A stretch of DNA of 35,103 nt. It comes from Candidatus Iainarchaeum sp. (GTDB lineage: Archaea > Iainarchaeota > Iainarchaeia > Iainarchaeales > DTGL01). Where the stretch lies: contig JAOAJX010000007.1 in the NCBI GenBank assembly GCA_026413945.1, positions 1 to 35,103 of the forward strand. Direction: 5' to 3'. Of the stretch, positions 13,113 through 35,103 are shown in pieces. Positions within the stretch are counted from its first letter, which is position 1; each line of letters opens with the position of its first letter. Both the position numbers and the translations under genes were made by a program. Under the pieces are notes generated by a model. The model worked only from the letters and a program-made list of their open reading frames with translations. It was not told where the DNA came from and made no database searches.

Positions 13113-13173
13113 GGTTCTTACAAAATATATAGCAAAAATCTATATTCGAAAATGAAAAAAGAGGTGATGATTG

Positions 13174-15054
13174 GTGGCTTATTTTAAAAATGCATTTCTT
13201 TCTTTTTTTGCAGTTCTTTTTTTGGGATTGTTGGTCTCTCAGGCAATGGCTCAAACCTCGGGCAGCGAGGCGGTTGACATAAGGCACATACACATAAGCG
13301 CAAAGGGGTTACTTATAAATGCCGATGATTCCATGGACATACACTCTAGCAAAATAATATCCGCTACATTTAAGCCAAAGGGACCAGAACCACTTAATTC
13401 TGAAAAAAGGCTCGATAGAGGCATAATAATCTTTGACAAAACAAAATACACAATAAAAGAAATAGTTGTAACAAGCACATCATTCTCTGCAAACATATAT
13501 GATAAGAATCTTCTGATAGGTAGCATTTCATTAACTTTTGTTGACACGCCTGATGTCATTGTTTGGGCTGGAAAGGCAACGATAAAAGAGGTGAAATATA
13601 ATGCATATTACTTGCAGTACAGCATGGTTTTCATTCCATTTAAACAGCTTAACCAAGTGCAGGAATACTGCGATAATAACCCAAATGCTGAAGGCTGCTC
13701 AAAAGTAAGAAATTGTGAGCAAAATCCGAGCAGCGAGGGCTGCTTGCCATTATGGAAGGAATACTGCATTAAGAACGTACAAGATGTAAGGTGCAAGTAT
13801 TATTTGAAAAAACTCTGCGAAGAAAACCCAGCATTAGAGTTTTGTGTAGTGCAAACAGACTCAAAAGACGAAACTTTCTTTACAGCAAGGACAGAAGCAA
13901 AAGATGGGTTGAGTGCAAGATTAAATGACTGCAAGAAATGTAAGTTAGATTGTTGGAAAAAATGCATTCCAACAAAAAAAGATACTTACACTCAGCTATC
14001 AGCTGATGAAAGAGATTGCTTACAGAAATGTATCAAAGAATGTGAGCCTTGTTATGTAACAGGAATGCCAATACCTTTTTCTGGGTTCGAAGGTGACCAA
14101 ACTCCGGTATTAGAAGAGGGAAGCTATAGGTTATGCACACCACCTTATAAGTGTATGGAAAAAAATGAGGCAACTGAAAAAGGATGTACTGTAGTTGAAA
14201 ACACAATCGTTGCAGATCAAAAATACATATGTAGTGCAGGCCTAGTATGCGCAAAATGTCCAACAAAGGTTACTTGTCCAAAGGCACCACCAATCGACTC
14301 GGTTTCTTGTAAAGTTGGCAAGGTTGTACCCAAATTCGATAAGAACAAGTGTATAGTTGGCTATGAATGTTTAGTACCAAAAGGTTGTATTTGCGTCGCT
14401 ATTTATGATCCAGTGTGTGGTAAAGACGGGAAGACGTACAGTAATAGCTGTGAGGCCGAGTGTGCTGGTGTTGAGATAGCATACAAAGGTCGTTGTGGCA
14501 GCAAACAAGATGGTGAGAAAGGCAGTGAGTGCGTGATAACTAAAAAGGTTTGTAATGAATATGGTTGTTACGAATATTTTTACAAAACTGAAGATTGTCC
14601 GGATGTCCCTGAAGTGCAACCAAAACCAACACAAGGACCTGGGCATGAACTATTTAAAACACCTACCCCTGGTTATCCAATTCCAAGACCAACAGCCTCG
14701 CCAATTAAGACCCCAATTCCAACCATATCTCCAAAACCAACACCAACATGGGTTTATCCGATTCCTACGGTAACCACAAACCCATCACCGGAATGTAATT
14801 ATTTCTATTGGTTCGACAACAACAATAGGACTTGTGGGTACAAAAAGTTCTGTGGGTTTTATATGTACGAAGGCTTGAGAACATTCACTACATTGAAGGA
14901 GTGTGAACAAGCACTATGTTCGCCATATCAATGCGTTGCAAAGAGCGTTGCTGAGAGATACAAGTGTACTCTAAAAAGCCAGGTTCCATGTAGCTATACA
15001 AATACAAAAGAGGAAAAATATTGCTATAGCTGTGGCTATGTGATACAAGGGTGA
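13174..15054 (+). CDS. Secreted Cys-rich Kazal-domain protein
   Basis: 626 residues with a clear signal peptide (FFAVLFLGLLVSQAMA, cleavage after AMA). An N-terminal beta-rich domain is followed by four tandem C-x2-N-x5-C modules (166-224), a long Cys-rich region with CxxCxxxCxxxC clusters, and a Kazal-like domain (405-441) with CxC..YDPVCGKDGKTYSNSCEAEC. A Thr/Pro linker (about 495-540) and a C-terminal Cys-rich domain end the protein. There is no membrane anchor. Kazal domains inhibit serine proteases; inhibition here is inferred from the family. GAGGTGAT five bases upstream favours GTG 13174 over TTG 13171. The stop overlaps the ribosome-binding site of the next Kazal gene, so the two are co-transcribed. 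Confidence 0.85.
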   Translation: MAYFKNAFLSFFAVLFLGLLVSQAMAQTSGSEAVDIRHIHISAKGLLINADDSMDIHSSKIISATFKPKGPEPLNSEKRLDRGIIIFDKTKYTIKEIVVTSTSFSANIYDKNLLIGSISLTFVDTPDVIVWAGKATIKEVKYNAYYLQYSMVFIPFKQLNQVQEYCDNNPNAEGCSKVRNCEQNPSSEGCLPLWKEYCIKNVQDVRCKYYLKKLCEENPALEFCVVQTDSKDETFFTARTEAKDGLSARLNDCKKCKLDCWKKCIPTKKDTYTQLSADERDCLQKCIKECEPCYVTGMPIPFSGFEGDQTPVLEEGSYRLCTPPYKCMEKNEATEKGCTVVENTIVADQKYICSAGLVCAKCPTKVTCPKAPPIDSVSCKVGKVVPKFDKNKCIVGYECLVPKGCICVAIYDPVCGKDGKTYSNSCEAECAGVEIAYKGRCGSKQDGEKGSECVITKKVCNEYGCYEYFYKTEDCPDVPEVQPKPTQGPGHELFKTPTPGYPIPRPTASPIKTPIPTISPKPTPTWVYPIPTVTTNPSPECNYFYWFDNNNRTCGYKKFCGFYMYEGLRTFTTLKECEQALCSPYQCVAKSVAERYKCTLKSQVPCSYTNTKEEKYCYSCGYVIQG

Positions 15055-22188: not shown

Positions 22189-23349
22189 TTACAGCCCTGC
22201 TTGTTTTCTCAGGTCGTCGGCAATATCAATTAATTCCCATGTGAATTCTGGTTCATTTCTTCCAAAGTGTCCATAGCAGGATGTTTTTGAGTAAATAGGC
22301 CTTAGCAGGTTGAGGTTTTCTATTATTTTGCTAGGGCTAAGATCAAAGTTCTTCTCTATGAGGGATCTTAGTTTGCTCTCTTGAATTTTGCAAGTGCCAA
22401 AAGTGTCTACGAAAAGAGCTGTTGGCTCGTGCGAACCAATTGCATATGCAACCTGTATTTCGCATTTATCAGCAATTCCTGCCGCCACTATATTCTTCGC
22501 GATATACCTAGCCATATAAGCTGCGCTCCTGTCAACCTTTGTAGGATCCTTTCCGGAGAAAGCTCCGCCGCCGTGCTTGCTCATTCCACCATATGTGTCA
22601 GCGATTATTTTTCTTCCTGTGCAGCCCACATCAGCTACTGGACCACCAATCACAAATCTGCCAGTATTGTTTATGTAATAGGTTGTTTTTTTGTCAATGT
22701 AATCTCCACATACAGGCTCTATAACTTCTTTTGTTATATCTTCACGCAGTTTTTGAAGAGTTACATCTGGGTCATGCTGGGCTGCAATAACAACAGAGTC
22801 AATGCGCTTAACAACAGAGCCATTAAACTCAACCGTAACTTGTGTTTTTCCATCAGGCCTTAAATATGTAAGTTTTTTCTTTTTTCTAACTTCGGCAAGT
22901 TTCAGTGCAAGTTTGTGGGCAAACATTATGGCTGCCGGCATCAATTCTTCAGTTTCAGCTGTTGCGTAGCCACACATCATTCCTTGGTCTCCGGCACCAA
23001 GGCCTTTGCCTTTTTTCGCGTTAACGCCAATTGCAATATCTGGGCTTTGTTCATGGATGCTGGATAAAACACCAACTGTTTTGTATTCAAAGCCATACTC
23101 AACCTTTGTATAGCCGATCTTTTCGAGGACCGCGCGCGCAATTTTTCCAACATCATACTTTGCATTTGTAGTAATTTCTCCACTAACAATAATAAAGCCC
23201 ATTCCTGCCATTGTCTCGCATGCGACTCGCGAGTATTTGTCTTGAGCTATTATTTCATCTAGAACTGCATCTGATACTTGGTCACAAACTTTATCCGGAT
23301 GGCCCTCAGTCATGGATTCCGAAGTAAAAAGATAATGGCCATTTGGCAT
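22189..23349 (-). CDS. metK: S-adenosylmethionine synthetase, bacterial type
   Basis: Makes SAM from methionine and ATP. The 386 residues are colinear with bacterial/eukaryotic Met[24 protein letters not shown] at the N-terminus, [31 protein letters not shown] and the C-terminal GHFGR segment. It is not the archaeal MAT family (COG1812), which is unrelated in these motifs. GAGGTGGAT two bases before ATG supports the start. It is the first gene of the minus-strand metK, ybaK-like, PHP, traB-like operon and is divergent from the surface-protein operon; the 200-base gap between them holds both promoters. Confidence 0.96.
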
Positions 23350-23491
23350 AAATCCACCTCTTTAAGTGATTGTAAACAAAAAATAATAAATAATATTCTT
23401 TTAATAACATAGGAGGTGCCAATTAAGCCAGAAATTATTTGCAAATTAATTTATTACTAACTAAATCACTTCTCGATGTTAAACCGAAAGG

Positions 23492-23528
23492 TTTATATAT
23501 TTCACCAACACATATATTAATGTGAAAT
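23492..23528 (+). promoter_or_regulatory. TATA box with dyad operator for the surface-protein operon
   Basis: TTTATATA (23492-23499), preceded by CCGAAAGG as a likely BRE, puts initiation near 23522-23525. Perfect 7-base inverted repeats ATTTCAC (23499-23505) and GTGAAAT (23522-23528), 23 bases centre to centre, flank the span between TATA box and start site. This layout suits a repressor that blocks initiation. GAGGGGGC before the ATG at 23551 is the ribosome-binding site. Confidence 0.65.
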
Positions 23529-23550: not shown

Positions 23551-24075
23551 ATGGGGGCAAAGATTTTAGCATCAGCAATAATTGTTTTGTTTTTTTTAGC
23601 AAATGCATTTTCATACATATCTGGGCCTGAAAACATTTTTATAGATGAGCCAATCAGGGTAATAACATACGAGATTTCAAATTCTTCCAACGAAGCAAAA
23701 GATTTTCAAGCAATGGTTTATTGTCCTAATGAAGTAAAGTGTGAAATATCAAATAGGCCTTCTTCTGTTGCTGCTGGGCAAAAGTCTTATTTCTCTATTT
23801 CATTTATGCCAACAGACGCAGCAATAAGGAACAATTATGCAGTAACTATTTTGGCAAAGCTTGGAACCAACACTATTTACAAGGAAGTAAAAGTGGCAGT
23901 TGGTATTCCAAAAGCGCCTGTTCAGAGACCTGTTGAAGAGCAAAAATCTGGCGAAGAAAATGTAAAAACACCAATGGTCATACAAGAAGCAACAATAATG
24001 AACATACTTTTGGCGTTAATTGCGCTTCTTTTATTTGGAATTTTCATACTCAAATTAACGGGGGGTAAAAGATGA
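23551..24075 (+). CDS. Secreted/anchored Ig-like protein, first gene of surface operon
   Basis: 174 residues, not recognised by name. It has a signal peptide (ILASAIIVLFFLANAFSYI), one Ig-like beta domain of about 100 residues (YEISNSSNEAKDFQAMVYCPNEVKCEIS.., with one Cys pair), a short Pro/Glu linker and a C-terminal helix (IMNILLALIALLLFGIFILKL) ending in GGKR. The domain resembles the NEW3/COG1470-like units of the following genes. It overlaps the next gene by 4 bases (ATGA). Confidence 0.78.
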   Translation: MGAKILASAIIVLFFLANAFSYISGPENIFIDEPIRVITYEISNSSNEAKDFQAMVYCPNEVKCEISNRPSSVAAGQKSYFSISFMPTDAAIRNNYAVTILAKLGTNTIYKEVKVAVGIPKAPVQRPVEEQKSGEENVKTPMVIQEATIMNILLALIALLLFGIFILKLTGGKR

Positions 24076-24923
24076 GTTATGTGAACTTAAAGCTTGCTTT
24101 GGGTATATTGCTCATAATTGTTTCCCTTAATAGGGCAATGGCTGGCTTAGTTGTTGAACCAACAAATCAAGGCAGTTACTATTATGGTGGCTATTATTCT
24201 TATGGTTACTACAGCACTTCTAACGCATACAAGAAGTGTATAGGTAATACAATATACATTGAGAGGACAACTCCACAAGGAACAAGTCTAACTCCACTGT
24301 ATAGTTGCGGAGCAAATGAGCAGTGCATTGATGGCGATTGCATGAAAAAGGCAACAAGAATAAATATTGGATCATGGGAGTTTAGCTTCGGGCCATGGTG
24401 CTCTGAAAAATATGTAAGTCAGTATTGCATTGGAGATGAAGTTTGGGGCTTGTATAGAAATTCAAAATGCGTAACCTCACCACAATTTATACAAACGTGC
24501 CAGTATGGCTGCAGCAATGGAGTATGCAATTCAGCAAAAGTGCCGGTATATTATTATCAATATTATTCATATCAACCACAACAAGTACAGGTGACAACAC
24601 CACCAACAACATACAGCCCAGCAACTTACACTTATACTTATTCATATAGTAGACAACCTGCACAGCAAAGTTGCTCAACAGGATATGTCTGTGTTGATGC
24701 ATCTTATAAAGCATATAGAAGCAATAATTGCGAGATTATCTCAAGCACTTATACATATTGCCAATATGGCTGCAAGGACGGTGTATGCCAACAGCCAAGA
24801 TACACAGTCCCTTCAATAAAATATTATAGGGATTGCGACAATGATGGTGATTGTCCACCGGGATATTATTGCAAACACACATTCGCTTATGATAAATGTA
24901 TACCGATATGGGGCGACCCATAA
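24072..24923 (+). CDS. Secreted Tyr/Cys-rich repeat protein
   Basis: 283 residues. A signal peptide (LALGILLIIVSLNRAMA) is followed by a Tyr/Gly stretch (YYYGGYYSYGYYS) and three related Cys modules of about 50 residues, two of them ending in CQYGCxxGVC (24501-24530 and 24759-24788). A Tyr/Gln/Thr/Pro linker separates the second and third. The end is DCDNDGDCPPGYYCK..DKC, which resembles calcium-binding or EGF-like knots. It has no membrane anchor, so the protein is released or held by its operon partners. It is translationally coupled to the preceding gene. Confidence 0.8.
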   Translation: MSYVNLKLALGILLIIVSLNRAMAGLVVEPTNQGSYYYGGYYSYGYYSTSNAYKKCIGNTIYIERTTPQGTSLTPLYSCGANEQCIDGDCMKKATRINIGSWEFSFGPWCSEKYVSQYCIGDEVWGLYRNSKCVTSPQFIQTCQYGCSNGVCNSAKVPVYYYQYYSYQPQQVQVTTPPTTYSPATYTYTYSYSRQPAQQSCSTGYVCVDASYKAYRSNNCEIISSTYTYCQYGCKDGVCQQPRYTVPSIKYYRDCDNDGDCPPGYYCKHTFAYDKCIPIWGDP

Positions 24924-24953
24924 AAAAGGGGGTTTTAAGTTAAAGGTGGTTTT

Positions 24954-27206
24954 ATGGATAAGAACATTGTGAATAAATCAGGAATTTTATTTTTGCTTTT
25001 CATACTTGCGGGGCTTGCCTATGCATGTACATATGCATGTACAACTTGTCCAAATACGCCTCCAAGCAAACCAAATGTATACATAACACCATCTAACCCA
25101 ACTACAAACGACGACCTTTACTGCTATGCAAACAGCTATGACCCTGAATGCGATACACTAACATATCATTACAGATGGTACAGAGATGGAGTTCTTTATA
25201 CAACACAATCAACTACTTCAAATTACACTTCAATATCAAAAAATAATACAAACTATTCAGAAACATGGAAATGCGTTGTTAAGGCCTTTGATGGCAGAGA
25301 TTACAGCGAAGAAAACAGTGACACAGTAAAAATTGAAGGAGAACCTTGCATAGATTTCGAGATTACAACAGGCGTCGATAGCATAACCATGAAAAGAAAT
25401 GACACTCAAACTTTAAGTTTTTGGTTAAGGAATAAGGGGAATTACTCAATTTGCATAAATTTAAGGACGAGCAACAGCAGCTCTTACCTCGAGTCATGGG
25501 CTTCAAGAGAAAGTGTATGCTTAAATGCATACGAGTCAAAGCAATTGACGCTTACAATAAGGACAAATAATGCTTCAGTTGGTTATTATAGCGTTAAGAT
25601 AAAGGGAGATGGCTGTTACACACGAGAGAAAGAAATAACCGTTAAAGTTGAAGAACCTTGTCAGCCACCTCAGTGCTGCCCATATCCGCCATGTTATACT
25701 CCAACACCAACTCCAAGCTGTGGTTCATATTATTATCCTTGCTATACCCCAACGCCGAGCTGTCAGCCTTATTGTGGCCAGCCAATTGAAATTGTACCTA
25801 TAAGGACTTCAATATGCCAAGAATCAAAAGGGACAATAAGCGTTTTGGTTAAGAATTTGACAAATAATGAGTTAGTGGTGAGGCTGGAATCAAGTTCTGT
25901 TGGCTTTTCGAGCAGTTTTGAGCAAAGCGCTGTAGTTTTGAGTGCCGGCCAAGAGAAATATGTGAACCTCAATGTTTACACACAATGCCAAATTGGTGAG
26001 CAATATGTTACAATATATGGCAAAGTTGATGGCTACACGCTGCAGCGAAAGGCAAACTTTACAGTTATAAGTTGCCCTAAGCCAGAAACAAAGAATTTTT
26101 CTATAGAAGTTCCAGTGGCATGCACCTCGATGCAGAAGATGCAAACTGCCAATATTGCTTTCACGGTAAAAAACCTTACAAGATATTCTCAAACTGTAAA
26201 CTTACAAGCAGTTTCTTCAATAGTCAGCGAAGTTGATCAAACAAGCGTAAATCTTGGACCTTATGAGAGTAAGACATTATATGTAAGGGCGTATGCCAGA
26301 GAGACTGATAAGCCAGGCAAACAATATATAACACTCTATGGCTGGCAGGACAGCTATAAAGAAAAGAAAGAATTGTGTGTAGAAATACAGCAGATGCATA
26401 AAACACTTGTTACTTTAGCAAATAATGACCTTAAGATACCACAGTGTAGCTATGGTGTTTTTACCCTGACTGTGCATAATGCTGGAGACACTGTGCAAAA
26501 CTATAAAGTAAGTACCAATAATGCCACAAAAGCAACAATTAAATTTTCTGAAAGCTCGTTTTCCCTATATCCAGGCGAAGCAAAAGAAGTTTTCATAACA
26601 GTTAACGTACCCGTGGATATGCAATTAGCAAAATATAGCACAGACATTGTTGTTGAAAACAGCAGTGTTTGGGTAAGGACAATATACTTTGATGTCATTA
26701 AAAGCACAGAGGAGCCAAGTACAACCCCTATTGAAGGGGAAAGACCAATAATACTTTCTTATCCGGTAAATATTGCAATTGCACCAGGTACTGAGAAGCA
26801 GTTCTCTATTGTGCTACATAACCCGACATCTAGAGCAATAAATATTGCAATAGATTTCGGGCTCCCACAGGGTTTTTACTCTCAAACAAAGAGTATTTAT
26901 CTCGCACCAGGAGCTACTGAAGCTGTAGTGGCTTCTATTGGCATTGACGCTAAAGTTACGCCTGAAAGGCATTACGATGGCATTCTCAGGCTAAGGTTTG
27001 AAAACACGGAAATATCAAAGCCGATTAGCGTTTATGTTGAAGTAATGCCAACAAGACCAGAAGGCACCGGTAGTGGTCTTTTCACCCTGGAGAATCCCTG
27101 GGTGATTGGCCTAATAATTGTCGTTGCTTTTATAGCAATAGTGCTAATACTAAACGCCTTTGGCGGGCGACAAAAAAAAGCAGAGTTTATGCTTTATAGG
27201 AGGTAG
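24954..27206 (+). CDS. Large anchored surface protein with Ig/NEW3-like repeats
   Basis: 750 residues. A signal peptide (ILFLLFILAGLAYA) is followed by an Ig-like/PKD-like domain (about 38-128), one NEW3-like domain (130-230), and a Cys/Pro/Thr linker with two CYTPTP repeats (232-278). Four more beta domains of about 100 residues (279-705) follow, most opening with a Cys and a 'VxNxT...VxL' strand. A membrane helix (VIGLIIVVAFIAIVLIL) and a basic tail (RRQKKAEFMLYRR) end it. The layout is a type I surface stalk. N-glycosylation sequons (NxS/T) are frequent. Its stop is directly followed by the next gene. Confidence 0.8.
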   Translation: MDKNIVNKSGILFLLFILAGLAYACTYACTTCPNTPPSKPNVYITPSNPTTNDDLYCYANSYDPECDTLTYHYRWYRDGVLYTTQSTTSNYTSISKNNTNYSETWKCVVKAFDGRDYSEENSDTVKIEGEPCIDFEITTGVDSITMKRNDTQTLSFWLRNKGNYSICINLRTSNSSSYLESWASRESVCLNAYESKQLTLTIRTNNASVGYYSVKIKGDGCYTREKEITVKVEEPCQPPQCCPYPPCYTPTPTPSCGSYYYPCYTPTPSCQPYCGQPIEIVPIRTSICQESKGTISVLVKNLTNNELVVRLESSSVGFSSSFEQSAVVLSAGQEKYVNLNVYTQCQIGEQYVTIYGKVDGYTLQRKANFTVISCPKPETKNFSIEVPVACTSMQKMQTANIAFTVKNLTRYSQTVNLQAVSSIVSEVDQTSVNLGPYESKTLYVRAYARETDKPGKQYITLYGWQDSYKEKKELCVEIQQMHKTLVTLANNDLKIPQCSYGVFTLTVHNAGDTVQNYKVSTNNATKATIKFSESSFSLYPGEAKEVFITVNVPVDMQLAKYSTDIVVENSSVWVRTIYFDVIKSTEEPSTTPIEGERPIILSYPVNIAIAPGTEKQFSIVLHNPTSRAINIAIDFGLPQGFYSQTKSIYLAPGATEAVVASIGIDAKVTPERHYDGILRLRFENTEISKPISVYVEVMPTRPEGTGSGLFTLENPWVIGLIIVVAFIAIVLILNAFGGRQKKAEFMLYRR

Positions 27207-27209
27207 GTG

Positions 27210-29414
27210 ATGATGAAGAAATTAATTGTTGCTTTGGCTTTTTTAATAATTGTGGCAAGCACTTTTGCTGCAATAGAAGGTGAGGGAAAACTAACTGCGA
27301 GTTGTTTTTCTGACCCTGCCATGCCAGTATATAAAATAACTAATGATTTCTCTGAAAGAACCGAGTTTACAATAAGCATTGATTATAAGCCAGATGTCTT
27401 TGACATAAAAACAATACCACAATTGCCGTATAAATTAACTCTCAATTCTGGCGAAAGCGCAGATCTTAGGCTATTTATTAAGCCTTGCTGCTGCGGCGAG
27501 CCAGGCAATTATGTAATAACAATAAAAGCAACATCTTCAAAAGGCGACTTTGTAAAAAAGGTTGATTTCACGGTACAAGAAGCTGGAAAAATAAAGGTTT
27601 CTATAGAGCCATCGGAAACGCAGTTAGGCCAGTGTGATGAGAGAACAGCGATAGTTACAATTGAAAATGCTAGTCCAGCAATCACAAATTTAGTGCTAAG
27701 CCTTAACACTGATTCGCCTCAGCTTTTCGAGTTAAGCACAAAAGAAATGCGCCTTGAGGCAAACTCAAAGAAAACAGTCAACCTAAAGATAAAGGCGCCC
27801 TGCCAATTAACACCAACAAAGAAAAGTGTTGAAGTTATTGCAAAAACAGTTGAAGGCGATTGCCCAAAGCTCTCTGGCAGCGCTTCATTTATTGCGGGGC
27901 TTGTTGATAGACAGAACATTGAGATAGAAAAAAAGACATTTGATGTCTGCAATGATATAGAGCAAACAACAACAATAAGGATAAAGAATCTAGGTTCCAG
28001 AACAGATGAGCTTAATCTGAGTTTGGAAGGACCGGAATGGGTAATATTACAGCAAAAAACTCTTACTATAGAGGGTGGTAAAGAAGGGGAGGTAGCTATA
28101 AAGTTCCTAAAGAGCACATCAGAAGGTAAGTTCAGTTTCACTATAAAAGCCAATTCAAAGAAATATAACAAAGACACCATTCAGCAGTTTGAAATAATGC
28201 TAAGGGACTGTTACAAAGTAGACATAGAAAAGTTTTCAGGAAAGGAAAGAGCTTGTATAGAAGACAAAACATTGGAATATAGCTTTGATCTCAAGAATAC
28301 AAAGAACACGGAAATAACATTCGAGCTCTCACTTGCAGGTATGAAAGGCAGTTTGAGCACTACAAAATTAACTTTAAAACCTGGGGAGAGGAAGGAGGTA
28401 AAAGCAACGATTGATGTCAGCGCAGAAAAAGAAGGCAAGAAAAGTTTCACCATAAGCATCAATGCACCACAGTTCAGCGACTCGTTTAAGGTTAACTTTG
28501 AGTTAGAAGACTGCTATGCTTTGAGCGTAGATTCAAAAGCAATAGAAAAAGATATAAAAATGGAAGTCTCACCTGAGTTATGCCCACAGAGTGTTTTGCT
28601 TGAGCTAAAAGTTACAAATACAGGAACAAAGGAACAAAACGTTAAGCTTTCGCTCACTGGCACAAAATGGGTTTACCTTGAGCCAACAAGCTTGAAGCTT
28701 GCTCCAAAAGAAACAAAGCCTTTTTACGTATATGTAGGACCACCGATAACAGAGACGGCTGGAAATTACACGGCAACACTTTGGATTGAGGCAAACGACT
28801 ACAAGAAGGAATTTCCTATAAGGATAAACCTTGCCTCAGTTACACTACCACAGAAGATAGGCATTGAGACATCAGCGCAGATTGAAGAAACAATAGTTCA
28901 GCAGGAAAAAACGATAAAGGCAAAGGTAAGGATTGTGAATACAAGCGATTGCCTGCTTGAGGTCAGCGATGTTAAAGCAGAAAAATACAGCGTGACATTT
29001 AGCCCCACCAAATTCACTCTTGACAAGAACGGCTTTGTTGAGCTAACAGCAACCGTTGCTTTAGGTAAGCTTGATGTGAACTCATTAGAAGTACCGATTT
29101 CAGTTACAACCGACCGTGGAATAATAAGAAAATCCGTTGTAATAGACCTTGTTAAGAAAGAGGTGTCAGAGGTTCCCGTAAAAGTAACACCAACACCAAA
29201 AGCAACAGCAATGGCAACAGCGACAGTTGATAAAAACGCAACGGTATCACCAGCAGCACCAGTAGGGCAAGCAGTTTCAGAGCCGATGACTAACATAATA
29301 GTATTGCTATTCTTAGCGGTTGTTGCAATAGTGATAGTTATTCTAGCGTACTATGCCTATAAGAAAGAGAAAGGCGAAGAAACAGGCATGAAGAACGAGA
29401 AAAAAAGCAAATAA
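27210..29414 (+). CDS. Large anchored surface protein with NEW3-like repeats
   Basis: About 734 residues. A signal peptide (LIVALAFLIIVASTFA) is followed by six or so beta domains of 90-110 residues, each opening near a Cys (QCDERTAIVTIEN, VCNDIEQTTTIRIKN, ACIEDKTLEYSFDLKN, LCPQSVLLELKVTN) and holding a 'ltLkpgekkev' strand, as in COG1470/NEW3 proteins. A Thr/Pro/Ala linker (PTPKATAMATATVDKNATVSP), a membrane helix (IIVLLFLAVVAIVIVILAYYAY) and a KK-rich tail follow. GTG 27207, ATG 27210 and ATG 27213 are all open; GGAGGT at 27199 favours 27210. It is the last gene of the operon and is followed by a strong T-tract terminator. Confidence 0.82.
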   Translation: MMKKLIVALAFLIIVASTFAAIEGEGKLTASCFSDPAMPVYKITNDFSERTEFTISIDYKPDVFDIKTIPQLPYKLTLNSGESADLRLFIKPCCCGEPGNYVITIKATSSKGDFVKKVDFTVQEAGKIKVSIEPSETQLGQCDERTAIVTIENASPAITNLVLSLNTDSPQLFELSTKEMRLEANSKKTVNLKIKAPCQLTPTKKSVEVIAKTVEGDCPKLSGSASFIAGLVDRQNIEIEKKTFDVCNDIEQTTTIRIKNLGSRTDELNLSLEGPEWVILQQKTLTIEGGKEGEVAIKFLKSTSEGKFSFTIKANSKKYNKDTIQQFEIMLRDCYKVDIEKFSGKERACIEDKTLEYSFDLKNTKNTEITFELSLAGMKGSLSTTKLTLKPGERKEVKATIDVSAEKEGKKSFTISINAPQFSDSFKVNFELEDCYALSVDSKAIEKDIKMEVSPELCPQSVLLELKVTNTGTKEQNVKLSLTGTKWVYLEPTSLKLAPKETKPFYVYVGPPITETAGNYTATLWIEANDYKKEFPIRINLASVTLPQKIGIETSAQIEETIVQQEKTIKAKVRIVNTSDCLLEVSDVKAEKYSVTFSPTKFTLDKNGFVELTATVALGKLDVNSLEVPISVTTDRGIIRKSVVIDLVKKEVSEVPVKVTPTPKATAMATATVDKNATVSPAAPVGQAVSEPMTNIIVLLFLAVVAIVIVILAYYAYKKEKGEETGMKNEKKSK

Positions 29415-29416
29415 GC

Positions 29417-29450
29417 TTTTCTCTATTTTTTTTCTTTTTTATTTTTTTTT
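29417..29450 (+). terminator. T-tract terminator of the surface-protein operon
   Basis: T8, T6 and T9 runs broken by single bases lie within 36 bases of the stop codon. It is the strongest T tract in an intergenic gap of this window and ends the plus-strand operon. The minus strand here is A-rich and would not end the convergent gene. Confidence 0.65.
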
Positions 29451-29490: not shown

Positions 29491-30342
29491 TTACCAAACC
29501 CTTTTGAGTGAGCTGACAAAATTATACTGTAAGCATGCAAGGCACTGTATTATTGAAGCACATGAGCTGCAGTCAGTTGGAAGCACAACTTCTGGCTTTT
29601 GTGGTGGTTGTGTAGGCCCATTAGTATCTCCTGTTGGGCCAGTATCCCCGGGCTTTTTTGGCAAACCTGTAGCATAAGCATTGATCTGCTCTTGCGTGCT
29701 GAACCATGGTGTAAAAGTACCACCTGCACCAGTGCCTTCATCGATCCTGAACCTAACATCGAAGTCAATCACAATTTCAGGATTTTGAGTATCTTTCCAG
29801 ACATAACGAAAACTTTTGTCAGCAGCAGTAGTTTCCAACATCGTTGGCTGTTTTATATTGTTAATCCTGTACTCAATACGGCCATCTTTTCCGCAATTAT
29901 TAGCTTTTGGTCCTCCATCACATCTTTGGGTTTCACCGGCTTTATGAAAGCTTATAGAACCTATTCCGTGTAAGCAATCCAGTGTGTAGCTTGTTGTTCC
30001 TCTATCAAAATATTTTACTTCAAAGCTTACCTTCGGTCTGTCCTTTTGTAATAGCGTAAGATCACCACCGGTAATGCTTTCGTTTATAAATGGAATTAAC
30101 TCGTATGGATATATGTAATATATTCCGTTGTGACAAGGGTAAGTTTTAGCCAATGCAGTGCTATCTATTTTAGCAAAGAAATCAGCCCGTTGCAGAGATA
30201 TTGGGTGAGATGGATTGTAAATTGTTTTTGTTGCTGGTTTTGTTGTTATCGTAAAAGCAAAAGAGGAATGAGGCAATAATACCAAAAATAAAAATAGAAA
30301 TATTAGTTTCTTTGCCAACTTATAACAATTATGGCGGTTCAT
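29491..30342 (-). CDS. Secreted hypothetical protein
   Basis: 283 residues, not recognised. A signal peptide (LIFLFLFLVLLPHSSFA) is followed by a beta-rich domain of about 200 residues with scattered Cys (PCHNG, DCLHG, RCDGG, NNCG), an acidic DFDVRFRIDEGTG segment that may bind a cation, and a Gly/Pro/Thr linker. The Cys-rich end (TDCSSCASIIQCLACLQYNF) resembles the end of a processed or disulfide-linked surface protein. It lacks the C-terminal helix of its neighbours. GGGATTTTGA before the ATG and two TATA-like stretches (30388-30398 and 30407-30416) lie upstream. It is oriented against the neighbouring surface genes. Confidence 0.75.
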   Translation of the reverse strand: MNRHNCYKLAKKLIFLFLFLVLLPHSSFAFTITTKPATKTIYNPSHPISLQRADFFAKIDSTALAKTYPCHNGIYYIYPYELIPFINESITGGDLTLLQKDRPKVSFEVKYFDRGTTSYTLDCLHGIGSISFHKAGETQRCDGGPKANNCGKDGRIEYRINNIKQPTMLETTAADKSFRYVWKDTQNPEIVIDFDVRFRIDEGTGAGGTFTPWFSTQEQINAYATGLPKKPGDTGPTGDTNGPTQPPQKPEVVLPTDCSSCASIIQCLACLQYNFVSSLKRVW

Positions 30343-30560: not shown

Positions 30561-32057
30561 GTGGATAATAAAAAGATTCTAGCAGCATTTTTTGTTTTTT
30601 TTTATTTGTCTATTTGCCTCTCGACTAGCGTCAATATTGGTGATAAACAAGAAGGCGGAGAAGATACCATAAATATCAGTGTTGGTGGCAGGAATGTTGA
30701 AGCTACCGGTGTTGATTGCTTTGATTACTATCACTTTGGCTTAGTTGAGTTTGATTATCCACGGCCAGAAAAAACTGTTTACAAAACTGGTGAAACTGCC
30801 AGCATTGTAACAACTATAATAAACAATAATGAATATGCAATTGTGCAAGGCAATGTAATTGCACAAGTATACTACACAAACAAAGAAAGTGGGAATTACC
30901 AAGGAGACCATCTTTTGGCAGAATTTATTGCTTTTGATGGTTTGGCTTTAGCGCCAAAGCAGGCATATGATCTTGCTGTGGAATGGCAGATTCCAAAAGA
31001 TGCACCAAAAGGCAGATATGATGTTGCTCTTTATTTCCAAGAGTTGCACACATATAATATGTCTGGCCTGCCATTCATAACTAACTATTATGGCGGCCTT
31101 GCAAGCTTTGATGTTGAGAGCGCAAATGAAAATTTGCCATTTTACTTTGATAGAAATGCTGTTTTGTTAAACGGTGAGAAACAGCTTTTGAGACATTTCT
31201 CAAAAAACTTTGAAAAAGGCGAAAAAATCACATATGAAGTGCCGATAGTAAATCCAACGACAAAAAGCCAAAGTGTTTCAGTTACCTATCAGCTTTACTC
31301 ATGGGACCAAAGCGATGAGAAAAACCTTTTGGTCAAATACTCAAAGAATGAAAACATGGAAATAGGCGCAAAATCTAGCAAAAAGGCATCAATAAACTTT
31401 AATGACCTTGAGGCCGGAGCATATGAATTAAAGATAACTGCTAGCAACAATGCTTGGAACAGCATATTATTGCTTAGGTTTACAGTAAAAGGTGCAAAAG
31501 GAAGATTCATACACACTGGCTTGACAGCATTTCCTCTATTAAAAGGAGATAATTTTACAATGTTCGCATGCTTTTCAAATACGACTGATTGGTTTACAAA
31601 TTTCAATGGAGAGGTTGTATTGGAACTCAAAGATAACAAAGGCAATATATTGGGTACGGAAACTTTCAGGGGAGAGATCACTCCAAAAATTATGGCAATA
31701 AAGAAAGACTTGAAAGCAACCGAATGCTATGATGAGCTTCACCTTACTGCGAGAATTAAAGATTCTGGCACTGGGAAAATTCATCAAGAAATAACAAAAG
31801 TTTATAGGTTGGCGGATTTCAGAGACGCTAATCTTATAGACAAATTCTACGAAGAAAAAGCAAAGATTGAAGCTAAACCAACACCAACAAAAACAGTTGA
31901 AGAGACAAGAACCCAAGTGCCTGTAAAAACACAAGAACCAACGAAAACGCCTTTGCCAAAGGAGGAATTTCCGTCCGGAATTTTATTGGTTACGGCAGTA
32001 GCAGCAATAATTATTGTTGGTGGTGCATTATATTACATCAAAAAGGTAAGAAAGTAA
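30561..32057 (+). CDS. Anchored surface protein with CARDB/Ig-like domains
   Basis: 498 residues. The GTG start follows GAGGTGGT by 3 bases. A signal peptide (ILAAFFVFFYLSICLSTS) contains a T9 run in frame. Three beta domains follow (about 65-185, 200-320, 325-425), with CARDB-like 'VYKTGETASIVTTIINNNEY' and 'VPIVNPTTKSQSVSVTYQL' strands. A Thr/Pro/Lys linker leads to EEFPSG, a helix (ILLVTAVAAIIIVGGALYYI) and KKVRK. This ending has a PEF-CTERM-like look, but no archaeosortase gene is in the window. It lies close upstream of the two PKD paralogues and probably shares a transcript with them. Confidence 0.82.
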   Translation: MDNKKILAAFFVFFYLSICLSTSVNIGDKQEGGEDTINISVGGRNVEATGVDCFDYYHFGLVEFDYPRPEKTVYKTGETASIVTTIINNNEYAIVQGNVIAQVYYTNKESGNYQGDHLLAEFIAFDGLALAPKQAYDLAVEWQIPKDAPKGRYDVALYFQELHTYNMSGLPFITNYYGGLASFDVESANENLPFYFDRNAVLLNGEKQLLRHFSKNFEKGEKITYEVPIVNPTTKSQSVSVTYQLYSWDQSDEKNLLVKYSKNENMEIGAKSSKKASINFNDLEAGAYELKITASNNAWNSILLLRFTVKGAKGRFIHTGLTAFPLLKGDNFTMFACFSNTTDWFTNFNGEVVLELKDNKGNILGTETFRGEITPKIMAIKKDLKATECYDELHLTARIKDSGTGKIHQEITKVYRLADFRDANLIDKFYEEKAKIEAKPTPTKTVEETRTQVPVKTQEPTKTPLPKEEFPSGILLVTAVAAIIIVGGALYYIKKVRK

Positions 32058-32102
32058 TTGGGTTGGTTGATGTTATGAAGTTGGGTTTTCAGTTCTCTTT
32101 TA

Positions 32103-33401
32103 TTGTTACTATTGTTTTTTTGCTTTTTTTTTGCACCCAAAGCGCTTTCATCTGCTTCATGCCAAGGCGGCATAAATGCAACGGAGTTAGCTTATGGGTC
32201 AGGGTACCAAATAGGCCAAATATATGGTTATGCAAATGATATTATAAAAACATTTAGACTCCCTTTGAGCTGGGGTGGTTACAATGCTTTCCAGAGGATC
32301 TGTGTTGGCGGTGAAATGGCCTTCAGCGATGCCGAAACCGGCTTTAAAATAACATTTTTCCAAAATGATGTGCCTACACAACAGATACCAAGCAGCTTAA
32401 CGCTTGCGTATGGTATTGCAATTGAGCCACCGACAGGTGAAGATCAGCCACAGCCGGGCCAAGATGAAAACAAGTTTAGAAAAAATGAATGGATAAACGA
32501 AGGTGCTTCCCAAGATAGTCCACCAATAATAAATGTATCAACCTCTTTCATAACTAAGCTATGCGATGAAGGACAAAAGAAATATAATTGCTCAAACTAT
32601 GGTAACAATAAGCTATGTACAAAAACGAGTGGCGATTACAGCACACCTAATTCCTTCAAAACTAAGGTTGAGAAAGTTTCAAGTATTCCAAGCACTTACG
32701 TTGCGAGTAATGGTTATGATACATACGTTATTCCTTTTGGCGGACTTAATACAGTCGCTCTCGGTGGAACACAGCTATTAAGGGCTATTGAGATTGCTTT
32801 GGACTGCAAGGTTTCCTGCAATGGTCCGCTTGAGCCAAAGAAAGCAGACGCTAAAGTGTATAACTTAACTTTGCATAAAGAAGATAAGCAAAAAGATTCC
32901 TACTATATTGACCTTGATGAAGCAGCCCAAAAGTGTGCTGGAGGAGCCGACATTTATGTTGGCTGTTACAGCAATCCTGGCGCACATTTCCTTTATGTTG
33001 ATAAGATATTTTTCCCTGACACAATGGAATCTGCAGAGGCAAACTGGCTTATAAGAATGTATCCATCAAATCAAGCTGGTTCCAATCAGCCAAAGCTTCT
33101 ATTCCAACTCCCACTTGTTGCTGCTGCGGGAAATCCACCTGTTGCTGACTTTGCCTATGAGGTTGACAGTGCAACTGGAGAAGAGACTTTGCTAAAATTT
33201 ACACCAACAGTTTCAGATTCAGACGGCACAGTAAAATCTCTGACATGGAACTTCGGCGATGGGCAAAAACATGTGATGAAACAGGAGCCGATCCCTGTGA
33301 CTTACGGCTTTAAGCCTGGTTATTACACAGTTTCGCTAACAGTTTATGACAATGATGGCCTCAAAGTGAAAAAGGTAAGAACAATAAAAGTTGAAGATTG
33401 A
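32103..33401 (+). CDS. Secreted PKD-domain protein, first of tandem pair, signal-peptide frame broken
   Basis: The uninterrupted frame begins at TTG 32103 (432 residues, MLLLFFCFFFAPKALSSASC..), which lacks the usual charged N-terminus. ATG at 32075, which follows GGTTGATGTT, encodes MKLGFQFSFIVTIVFLLFF in the neighbouring frame. Removing one T from the T7 or T9 tract would join the two into an ideal signal peptide. The mature part has an IEPPTGEDQPQPG linker, KNEWINEGASQDSPP, several Cys, a domain ending in FPDTMESAEANWLIRMYPSN, and a C-terminal PKD domain (about 350-430) with ESDGTVKSLTWNFGDG-like features and GYYTVSLTVYDNDG. There is no membrane anchor. It is closely related to the next gene. 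Confidence 0.78.
   Translation: MLLLFFCFFFAPKALSSASCQGGINATELAYGSGYQIGQIYGYANDIIKTFRLPLSWGGYNAFQRICVGGEMAFSDAETGFKITFFQNDVPTQQIPSSLTLAYGIAIEPPTGEDQPQPGQDENKFRKNEWINEGASQDSPPIINVSTSFITKLCDEGQKKYNCSNYGNNKLCTKTSGDYSTPNSFKTKVEKVSSIPSTYVASNGYDTYVIPFGGLNTVALGGTQLLRAIEIALDCKVSCNGPLEPKKADAKVYNLTLHKEDKQKDSYYIDLDEAAQKCAGGADIYVGCYSNPGAHFLYVDKIFFPDTMESAEANWLIRMYPSNQAGSNQPKLLFQLPLVAAAGNPPVADFAYEVDSATGEETLLKFTPTVSDSDGTVKSLTWNFGDGQKHVMKQEPIPVTYGFKPGYYTVSLTVYDNDGLKVKKVRTIKVED
32115..32132 (+). other. T7 and T9 tracts where the signal-peptide frame shifts
   Basis: T7 (32115-32121) and T9 (32124-32132), separated by GC, lie where the ATG 32075 frame must move by +1 to meet the PKD frame. With one T fewer the two join without any other change. 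Confidence 0.7.
32409..32449 (+). repeat. 41-base direct repeat, copy 1
   Basis: Identical over 41 bases to 33888-33928 in the adjacent paralogue. It encodes YGIAIEPPTGEDQP, at the same place in both proteins. Flanking codons differ, so identity at synonymous positions exceeds what the rest of the pair shows. Confidence 0.85.
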
Positions 33402-33413
33402 GGGTGGTTAGAA

Positions 33414-35103
33414 ATGGAAAATATAGGTTATAGAAAAATTTATATTTTTTTATTTATGGCCATTATGTTATCAATTTTTTGTGGCCCTATCAGTTCACAG
33501 TCAATATCTGACTCTGTAAAAGGTTACACTGAATTAAGCCTTGTTTTTATTTCTTCCTATTGTGTCCTTGATCAAAATTGCTATAAGATGTGTGTCCAAA
33601 AAATTGGCTCAACTATTAAATGTCGCGCTCAATGTAGCCAGACTAGAGAAGAGTTCTCACCTGTTGTAAAAGAGTACGAAAGCAAAATCTTAGACTACTT
33701 TCGCTTTCCCTCACAAAAAAAAGTTTATATAGAGAGCATGTATTTTGATGATAACGATTTTTTGAATGCAGCCAGGGTAGTAGTAGGTATGGAAGTTGCT
33801 TTGGGGGGTGCTGACTCTGGCTATAGAATAAACTTCATCAAAAATGATGTTTCTACTGAGAAAGCACCAAACCCATTGACTTTAGATTATGGTATTGCAA
33901 TTGAGCCACCGACAGGTGAAGATCAGCCGCAGCCTGGAAAGGAGCCACAGCCCAGGAAAAATGAATGGATAAATGAGGGGGGCGAAGCTGATTCTCCACC
34001 AATGATAAATGTTTCTAAGGAGTTTATTTCAAAGCTTTGTGATAAAGGTCAGAAAAGATACTGGCATTCTGTATACTTTGCACGGTATTATCCATTACCT
34101 TTAATAAGAGTTCGATTGTATGATATGAGTAAGGGTTCAAGAATTATTTCTGATAAATACTGCAAAAAAATAGATAATAAAGGTTATATATCTTATTTTA
34201 ATATAAACAAGTGTGCAAAAGAAGATTACAATAAATTTGAAACAGAGGTTGAAAAGATAAGCACCATACCAAATATTTATACGGCAAGAAATGGTTATGA
34301 AGCTTATGTAATTCCGTTAGATGGCCTAAAAACACAGGCATATGGGGGTGTTCAGCTTTTTAGGGCTGTTGATGCTTCAATAAGGTGTTTTATTTCCTGC
34401 AATGGTAGATTAGACGAGAATATAGATTCAAATAAAATTAATGTCTACGAGATACCTTTTTATAGAAAAGTAGTAGATGGCAAAGAAAGATTTTATCTTG
34501 ATCTTGACCAAGCAGCAGAAAAATGCAAAAATGTGCAAAGAGCAGAGCCTTACATTGGATGCTATGATGTTGGCAGCGCTTATTTTGCATATGTTGACAA
34601 GATTTTCTTCCCTGATACTATGGAATCAGTGCAGGCTGACTGGCTTATAAGGTTATACAAGCCTCTGCCTAAGGAGATCGTAAAAGCATATTATAATGGC
34701 AGCATCTCAGAACTACCTCTAGAGAATCCAAAGCTGATATTCCAAGTTCCATTGCAGCTTGCCTCAGGAACGCCGCCTGAGATAAGTTTTGAGTATCAGT
34801 TGGTTGCCATTACTGGTGAAGAAGTGCTTGTGTCATTTAAGCCAAAAGCAAGTGATTCTGATGGCAGAGTAGAGAGCATAACCTGGGACTTCGGCAATGG
34901 AAAGCAGTATGTTGCAAAGCCAAATGAAGAGGTTACATATAGCTTTGCTCCAGGTTATTATAGTGTTTCCGCATTGGCTTATGATAATGAAGGTTTGAAA
35001 TCAAAGAAAGTGAGAACATTGAACCTTTCACTTGAAACTAGCAAACCTTTATTTTCAGTTACTATTCCTGAACTGCCTCCTGAGTTGCCTCCAACTATGC
35101 CAG
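33414..35103 (+). CDS. Secreted PKD-domain protein, second of tandem pair, 3'-truncated
   Basis: ATG 33414, preceded by GGGTGGTTA, opens a frame that runs to the window end without a stop (at least 563 residues). A signal peptide (IYIFLFMAIMLSIFCGPISS) leads to a mature protein parallel to the upstream one: Cys-containing N-terminal domain, YGIAIEPPTGEDQPQPG linker, RKNEWINEGGEADSPP, YVDKIFFPDTMESVQADWLIRLY, and a PKD domain with SDSDGRVESITWDFGNG and APGYYSVSALAYDNEG. After it comes a Pro-rich linker (IPELPPELPPTMP) that the upstream copy lacks. Insertions in the middle (about 215-290) also differ. It is probably a surface adhesin-like protein. Confidence 0.85.
   Translation, partial: MENIGYRKIYIFLFMAIMLSIFCGPISSQSISDSVKGYTELSLVFISSYCVLDQNCYKMCVQKIGSTIKCRAQCSQTREEFSPVVKEYESKILDYFRFPSQKKVYIESMYFDDNDFLNAARVVVGMEVALGGADSGYRINFIKNDVSTEKAPNPLTLDYGIAIEPPTGEDQPQPGKEPQPRKNEWINEGGEADSPPMINVSKEFISKLCDKGQKRYWHSVYFARYYPLPLIRVRLYDMSKGSRIISDKYCKKIDNKGYISYFNINKCAKEDYNKFETEVEKISTIPNIYTARNGYEAYVIPLDGLKTQAYGGVQLFRAVDASIRCFISCNGRLDENIDSNKINVYEIPFYRKVVDGKERFYLDLDQAAEKCKNVQRAEPYIGCYDVGSAYFAYVDKIFFPDTMESVQADWLIRLYKPLPKEIVKAYYNGSISELPLENPKLIFQVPLQLASGTPPEISFEYQLVAITGEEVLVSFKPKASDSDGRVESITWDFGNGKQYVAKPNEEVTYSFAPGYYSVSALAYDNEGLKSKKVRTLNLSLETSKPLFSVTIPELPPELPPTMP
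33888..33928 (+). repeat. 41-base direct repeat, copy 2
   Basis: Second copy of the 41-base identity described at 32409-32449, in the tandem paralogue. The exact match suggests recent duplication or gene conversion across this linker. Confidence 0.85.

Follow-up and report, generated by a model that had tools for sequence, protein, structure and literature searches.

Organization of the locus

The 35,103-nucleotide stretch studied here (hereafter the window) covers positions 1 to 35,103 of contig JAOAJX010000007.1 from Candidatus Iainarchaeum sp. (assembly GCA_026413945.1), a tiny, uncultured member of the Diapherotrites, which we take to be the Iainarchaeota in GTDB naming; its genome (G000) measures 0.95 Mb and is 92% complete. 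Our subject is a block of four open reading frames, ORF1 to ORF4, on the + strand at 23551-29414, and a convergent gene behind them that encodes a secreted protein with a conserved C-terminal tag. All four frames, proposed in an initial annotation of the window, were recovered. ORF1 (23551-24075, 174 aa) encodes a small protein with a signal-like helix, one immunoglobulin (Ig)-like domain and a C-terminal transmembrane (TM) helix, and ORF2 (24072-24923, 283 aa) a secreted Tyr/Cys-rich protein that lacks a TM anchor. ORF3 (24954-27206, 750 aa) and ORF4 (27207-29414, 735 aa) encode two long proteins of six Ig-like domains followed by a TM helix (residues 715-736 and 696-720, respectively), with a short tail in ORF3 and a basic, predicted cytoplasmic tail in ORF4.

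The genes, described initially as overlapping or abutting, are tightly packed: ORF1 and ORF2 share 4 bp (ATGA), ORF2 and ORF3 lie 30 bp apart, and ORF3 and ORF4 abut. The ORF3-ORF4 junction reads AGGAGGTAGGTGATGATG, and because of this sequence the true start of ORF4 is probably the ATG at 27210 or 27213 rather than the GTG at 27207. Upstream of ORF1 sits the divergent metK gene (22189-23349, - strand). A putative archaeal promoter element resembling a factor B recognition element (BRE)/TATA box, CCGAAAGGTTTATATA, was read 5' of ORF1 (23484-23499, +), G-rich Shine-Dalgarno (SD)-like sites were seen by inspection 5' of each of the four genes, and a T-rich tract that could be an archaeal terminator follows ORF4 (29415-29450, +). 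One promoter-like element in front, SD-like sites and a T tract behind make it likely that ORF1-ORF4 form a single transcript.

Domain composition of the encoded proteins

A hydropathy script called an N-terminal signal-like hydrophobic helix and a C-terminal TM helix in each of ORF1, ORF3 and ORF4, the latter helix being conserved in the alignment of ORF1 relatives, and an N-terminal hydrophobic helix only in ORF2, which contains 20 Cys and 39 Tyr (13.8%). The earlier description of ORF1 as a small anchored Ig-like protein and of ORF2 as a free Tyr/Cys-rich protein was thus confirmed. AlphaFold modeled six Ig-like sandwiches and then the TM helix both in ORF3 (domains at approximately residues 41-126, 135-232, 278-372, 382-479, 484-582 and 599-695; mean predicted local distance difference test score, pLDDT, 81) and in ORF4 (mean pLDDT 72). 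ORF3 and ORF4 had been annotated as two long NEW3/Ig proteins with membrane tails: the Ig domains and the tails were found, but NEW3 (PF10633) fell under the Pfam gathering cut-off in ORF4 (19.6 vs 24.4 bits) and did not match ORF3. The choice-of-anchor T model (NF041740) likewise stayed under its curated cut-off in ORF4 (56.5 vs 70 bits), and FixG_C (PF11614) passed the gathering cut-off in both proteins as a domain match only (27.1 bits in ORF3 and 54.2 in ORF4 vs 25.6). Although individual ORF3 and ORF4 domains score with the FixG_C, NEW3 (NPCBM_assoc) and choice-of-anchor Ig families, this similarity is confined to single domains, and those families describe neither the whole architecture nor the operon. 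The repeats of the two proteins, which had also been called matched, resemble each other only distantly (19-25% identity, best E 3e-6).

Fold and sequence searches of the PDB with ORF3 and ORF4 retrieved generic Ig arrays only, with query-normalised whole-chain TM-scores of at most 0.27 for ORF4 and 0.23 for ORF3 among the 50 Foldseek matches listed. The Foldseek matches to the ciliary central apparatus, titin and complement, as well as the Pfam matches to the ciliary proteins Cep192, HYDIN and CFAP65, were dismissed as generic Ig folds. Scans against Pfam and curated models found no enzymatic domain in ORF1, ORF3 or ORF4. Eight Cys columns are kept among ORF4 relatives (33, 95, 143, 199, 248, 335, 350 and 436), an even count that would be compatible with internal disulfides. 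ORF4 proteins end in longer and more basic tails than ORF1 or ORF3 proteins do, and the terminal hexamer holds at least three Lys or Arg residues in 42/47 ORF4 sequences vs 11/45 for ORF1 and 9/51 for ORF3.

Conservation of a three-gene core

Gene order was examined in loci from ~60 genomes, many of them fragmented, with genes labeled by profiles. The gene directly upstream of ORF4 was ORF3 in all 48 genomes where both positions were on the contig (48/48). ORF1 heads the unit across the order: in loci with a called ORF1, the core gene that came next was ORF3, directly so in all families but the window's own family, f1, where one to three genes for Cys-rich secreted proteins (ORF2 and its analogues) are inserted between the two. 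G022 is the sole locus where the gene after ORF1 was not recognizably ORF3; in G024 and G028, ORF1 lies directly 5' of ORF3 by coordinates, though it was missed by the ORF caller. ORF4 relatives were found in 58/75 genomes of the order (E <= 1e-10), although the weaker matches could be Ig cross-hits to ORF3; ORF1 relatives were found in 57/87 genomes of the phylum, including 21 among the best 25. A search for related loci with ORF4 alone retrieved no relative. The cluster is therefore kept in most of the order Diapherotrites. The gene order whose conservation the initial annotation proposed as a check is kept for ORF1-ORF3-ORF4, three genes and not four: ORF2 relatives are confined to f1, and for this reason we consider ORF2 an accessory.

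The ORF4 profile also matched 4/97 sampled genomes in the phylum of a Micrarchaeota record, and in the 2/2 loci inspected an ORF3-like gene was directly upstream. These ORF3-like/ORF4-like pairs, with basic ORF4 tails (L237:7731-14533 and L238:8171-15890), suggest an older origin or a transfer between DPANN phyla.

A convergent secreted protein carries a four-Cys tag

The convergent gene (29491-30342, - strand) encodes a secreted protein of 283 aa with relatives that adjoin the cluster in other genomes. In relatives, secreted proteins of 183-1539 aa encoded beside the cluster have ends that match the C-terminal tail of this protein, and the alignment of this partner is very gappy. The bodies of these proteins are related within f1 (24-30% identity), and between families essentially the tail alone is shared. 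The tail contains a four-Cys tag with the consensus C-x2-C-x5-C-L-[AG]-C-[ILV]-[DN], which in the window reads CSSCASIIQCLAC (29533-29571, - strand; residues 258-270, 13 aa before the end of the protein). In the proteins that carry it, 9-27 aa separate the tag from the C-terminus, and the tag is not followed by a separate TM helix.

The tag was first spotted near the cluster, and a genome-wide count served as an independent check on its location. The corresponding DNA pattern had 24 matches in 20 of the 87 genomes searched; after translation, these comprised 19 C-terminal tags in 17 genomes, one internal match and four spurious ones. Sixteen of the 19 tags were at most 5.1 kb from ORF1, ORF3 or ORF4, for which random placement gives a binomial probability of ~1e-25, related genomes not being independent. 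The tags near the cluster span families f1, f2, f8 and f15, and three adjacent variants, in G001, G055 and G034 (f20), were missed by the pattern. In the window's genome the pattern has a single match, that in the partner itself. Tag-bearing secreted proteins were seen beside the cluster in the window and at L042-L044, L046-L048, L053, L055, L056, L058, L178, L203, L242 and L245.

A role of the tag as a general sorting signal for many proteins was rejected, as there is about one tag per genome. Like PGF-CTERM/sortase-type signals, it is a short, conserved C-terminal stretch shared by secreted proteins whose bodies differ widely. Unlike those signals, it is not followed by a separate TM helix and a basic terminus, and a genome usually encodes one tagged protein, next to the presumed receptor. 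A wide distribution of the tag in DPANN was rejected as far as the one other phylum sampled is concerned: there, the pattern had six matches in 279 genomes, none of them a C-terminal tag on a secreted protein. Tails resembling the tag but without some or all of the Cys occur in neighbors from f8 and f11 (L177, L182-L184 and L241); of these, L177 alone gave a clear match to the tag profile (E 8e-6), the others having been recognized by inspection. Such Cys-poor versions suggest that the tail may act as a docking helix and not solely through its Cys.

A secreted pair with signal-like helices (one protein of ~200 aa, the other of 590-1000 aa) also recurs next to the cluster, in some cases immediately ahead of the tagged gene (L044:12911-15738, L046:12593-15345, L043:5211-7783, L049:11879-14219, L200:1090-4025 and L241:8833-12455). 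Those tested matched no Pfam family, and the pair could possibly represent further components of the cluster.

A putative envelope scaffold displaying a tagged protein

The conserved order, the frequent overlaps and the shared architecture point to a joint surface assembly with ORF1-ORF3-ORF4 as its core. The invariant ORF3-ORF4 order, the position of ORF1 at the head and the 4-bp overlaps, which are frequent between ORF1 and ORF3, fit co-translation of the parts of one assembly. The surface assembly of four genes proposed initially is hence retained in a changed form, since its core has three genes and the tagged partner had been overlooked. The gene order, domain make-up, membrane anchors, tag and tag location established here led us to favor, with moderate confidence, a lineage-specific, membrane-anchored Ig-array scaffold in the Diapherotrites envelope that displays a tagged, variable secreted protein. 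The three core proteins would be made together from a single transcript, exported, and held in the membrane by their C-terminal TM helices. ORF3 and ORF4 would project outward as six-Ig arrays that make up the scaffold or stalk, and the small ORF1 would serve as a base subunit. The product of the convergent gene, likely a partner of the core, would dock through its conserved Cys-rich C-terminal tag and become the displayed head; in f1, Cys-rich proteins such as ORF2 would be added to the assembly. We infer the scaffold role, the docking by the tag and the contacts between the proteins.

Several observations weigh against this model. The predicted template modeling score (pTM) is low for both long proteins (0.43 for ORF4 and 0.35 for ORF3), so that the models do not fix the arrangement of the domains along the chain and an extended stalk geometry finds no support in them. 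Some genomes in f3, f7, f8, f11 and f20 keep ORF1-ORF3 with no recognizable ORF4 behind; in one of the f20 genomes, G034, the ORF4 position is taken by a TM protein of 582 aa whose tail is basic. The tagged partner is not universal either, none having been seen beside the cluster in f6, f14, f16 and f18.

More tentatively, the conserved anchored Ig trio could be the receptor for one or two dedicated, fast-diversifying secreted proteins that dock by a hitherto undescribed four-Cys tag (C-x2-C-x5-C-L-[AG]-C), giving a species-specific head on a shared stalk. Our literature search found no description of Diapherotrites surface proteins. The cluster, which most of the order keeps, provides a specific protein set for this surface whose folds are predicted and whose gene order is fixed. 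With the tag, a loosely defined surface operon becomes a receptor-cargo hypothesis that can be tested on three named candidate receptors.

Alternative roles

A possible, though less probable, role of ORF3 and/or ORF4 is to tile as a TM-anchored S-layer lattice to which the tagged protein would be an accessory. The model for such a lattice is the Haloferax volcanii S-layer glycoprotein csg, which has six Ig-like domains and a C-terminal anchor (PMC8640222). ORF3 and ORF4 are also secreted, with six predicted Ig-like domains and a C-terminal membrane anchor, their conservation in most of the order is what one expects of an envelope, and ORF3 holds 14 N-glycosylation sequons where 7.8 are expected by shuffling. 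However, they have no detectable sequence similarity to csg, the C-termini of their relatives show no PGF motif before the TM helix and no archaeosortase-type end, and PDB sequence searches with profiles A1 and A2 found no solved S-layer protein (one profile retrieved 2qsv only, E 0.003, the other nothing). Two distinct six-Ig proteins with a small third one in the same operon would also be unusual for a lattice. The layout nevertheless appears closest to archaeal Ig-array S-layer proteins such as csg, as a likeness and not as an assignment to that group. The two-component S-layer SlaA/SlaB of Sulfolobales (PMC5744192) similarly combines co-transcribed adjacent surface genes and a membrane-anchored stalk component with beta-sandwich domains. 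Here, in contrast, ORF3 and ORF4 each carry an anchor, a lattice protein resembling SlaA was not identified, and the models of ORF3 and ORF4 contain no coiled-coil: apart from the signal and TM helices, they consist of strands with only a few short turns of helix. Novel S-layer proteins have been predicted in Aenigmatarchaeota, Altiarchaeota and Undinarchaeota, Diapherotrites not being among the groups named in that portion of the review (PMC12175726).

An adhesion or partner-attachment device, in which the tagged variable protein would be an adhesin on an Ig stalk and hold a cell or polymer, is in our view unlikely. The size and sequence of the tagged protein differ greatly between close relatives, as in adhesins, TrmB-type regulators adjoin the cluster in several families, and cultivated DPANN archaea are reported to be ectosymbionts (PMC11291902). 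Nevertheless, Pfam recognized no binding domain in the partner encoded by the window, it is not established that the organisms behind these genomes live on a host or attached, and the core has a wider distribution than the tagged protein.

We consider it improbable that the cluster encodes a machine for processing, folding or export outside the cytoplasm, for which the tagged proteins would be substrates and not displayed heads: a fixed machine could have variable tagged clients encoded next to it, and the long basic cytoplasmic tails of ORF4 could bind ribosomes or the membrane, but the core proteins lack an enzymatic domain and one client per genome, the usual number, is few for a machine. 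Least probable of all are unrelated surface proteins adjacent merely by descent. Adjacency can persist in this way, and the window is rich in surface proteins of Ig- and PKD-like type (30561-35102), but the core order is kept across many families while the neighbors on either side change, and overlaps of 4 bp between adjoining core genes are frequent.

Neighboring genes

In most families the cluster is bordered by metK, a scan with which returned mostly bacteria. The window's copy matches the S-AdoMet_synt N/M/C Pfam models, which presumably represent the bacterial/eukaryal-type enzyme and not the archaeal type. In many families a gene for a regulator of ~185 aa with a helix-turn-helix (HTH) and two CBS domains lies between metK and ORF1 (L044, L045, L049-L052, L057-L059 and others); it had no match in the window's genome, from which it has apparently been lost. 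A TrmB-family regulator gene follows ORF4 in f2, f6, f14, f16 and f18 and in G086, a genome of another order; in these loci it is found directly or one gene past ORF4 on the opposite strand (L056, L058, L059, L185, L186, L189-L193, L195 and L203). Upstream of ORF1, genomes of f14 and f16 encode a long Ig protein that contains Cys and has a TM helix at its C-terminus (L186:203-3694, L188:11540-14263, L185:1-2718, L059:12400-15519 and L061:2069-5542), at loci where the tagged protein was not seen.

Past the cluster, the window encodes three further secreted proteins, two with PKD domains (30561-35102, +). Farther upstream, a gene at 13171-15054 (+) encodes a secreted protein of 627 aa that contains 46 Cys and a Kazal-type inhibitor domain, which is unusual in an archaeon.

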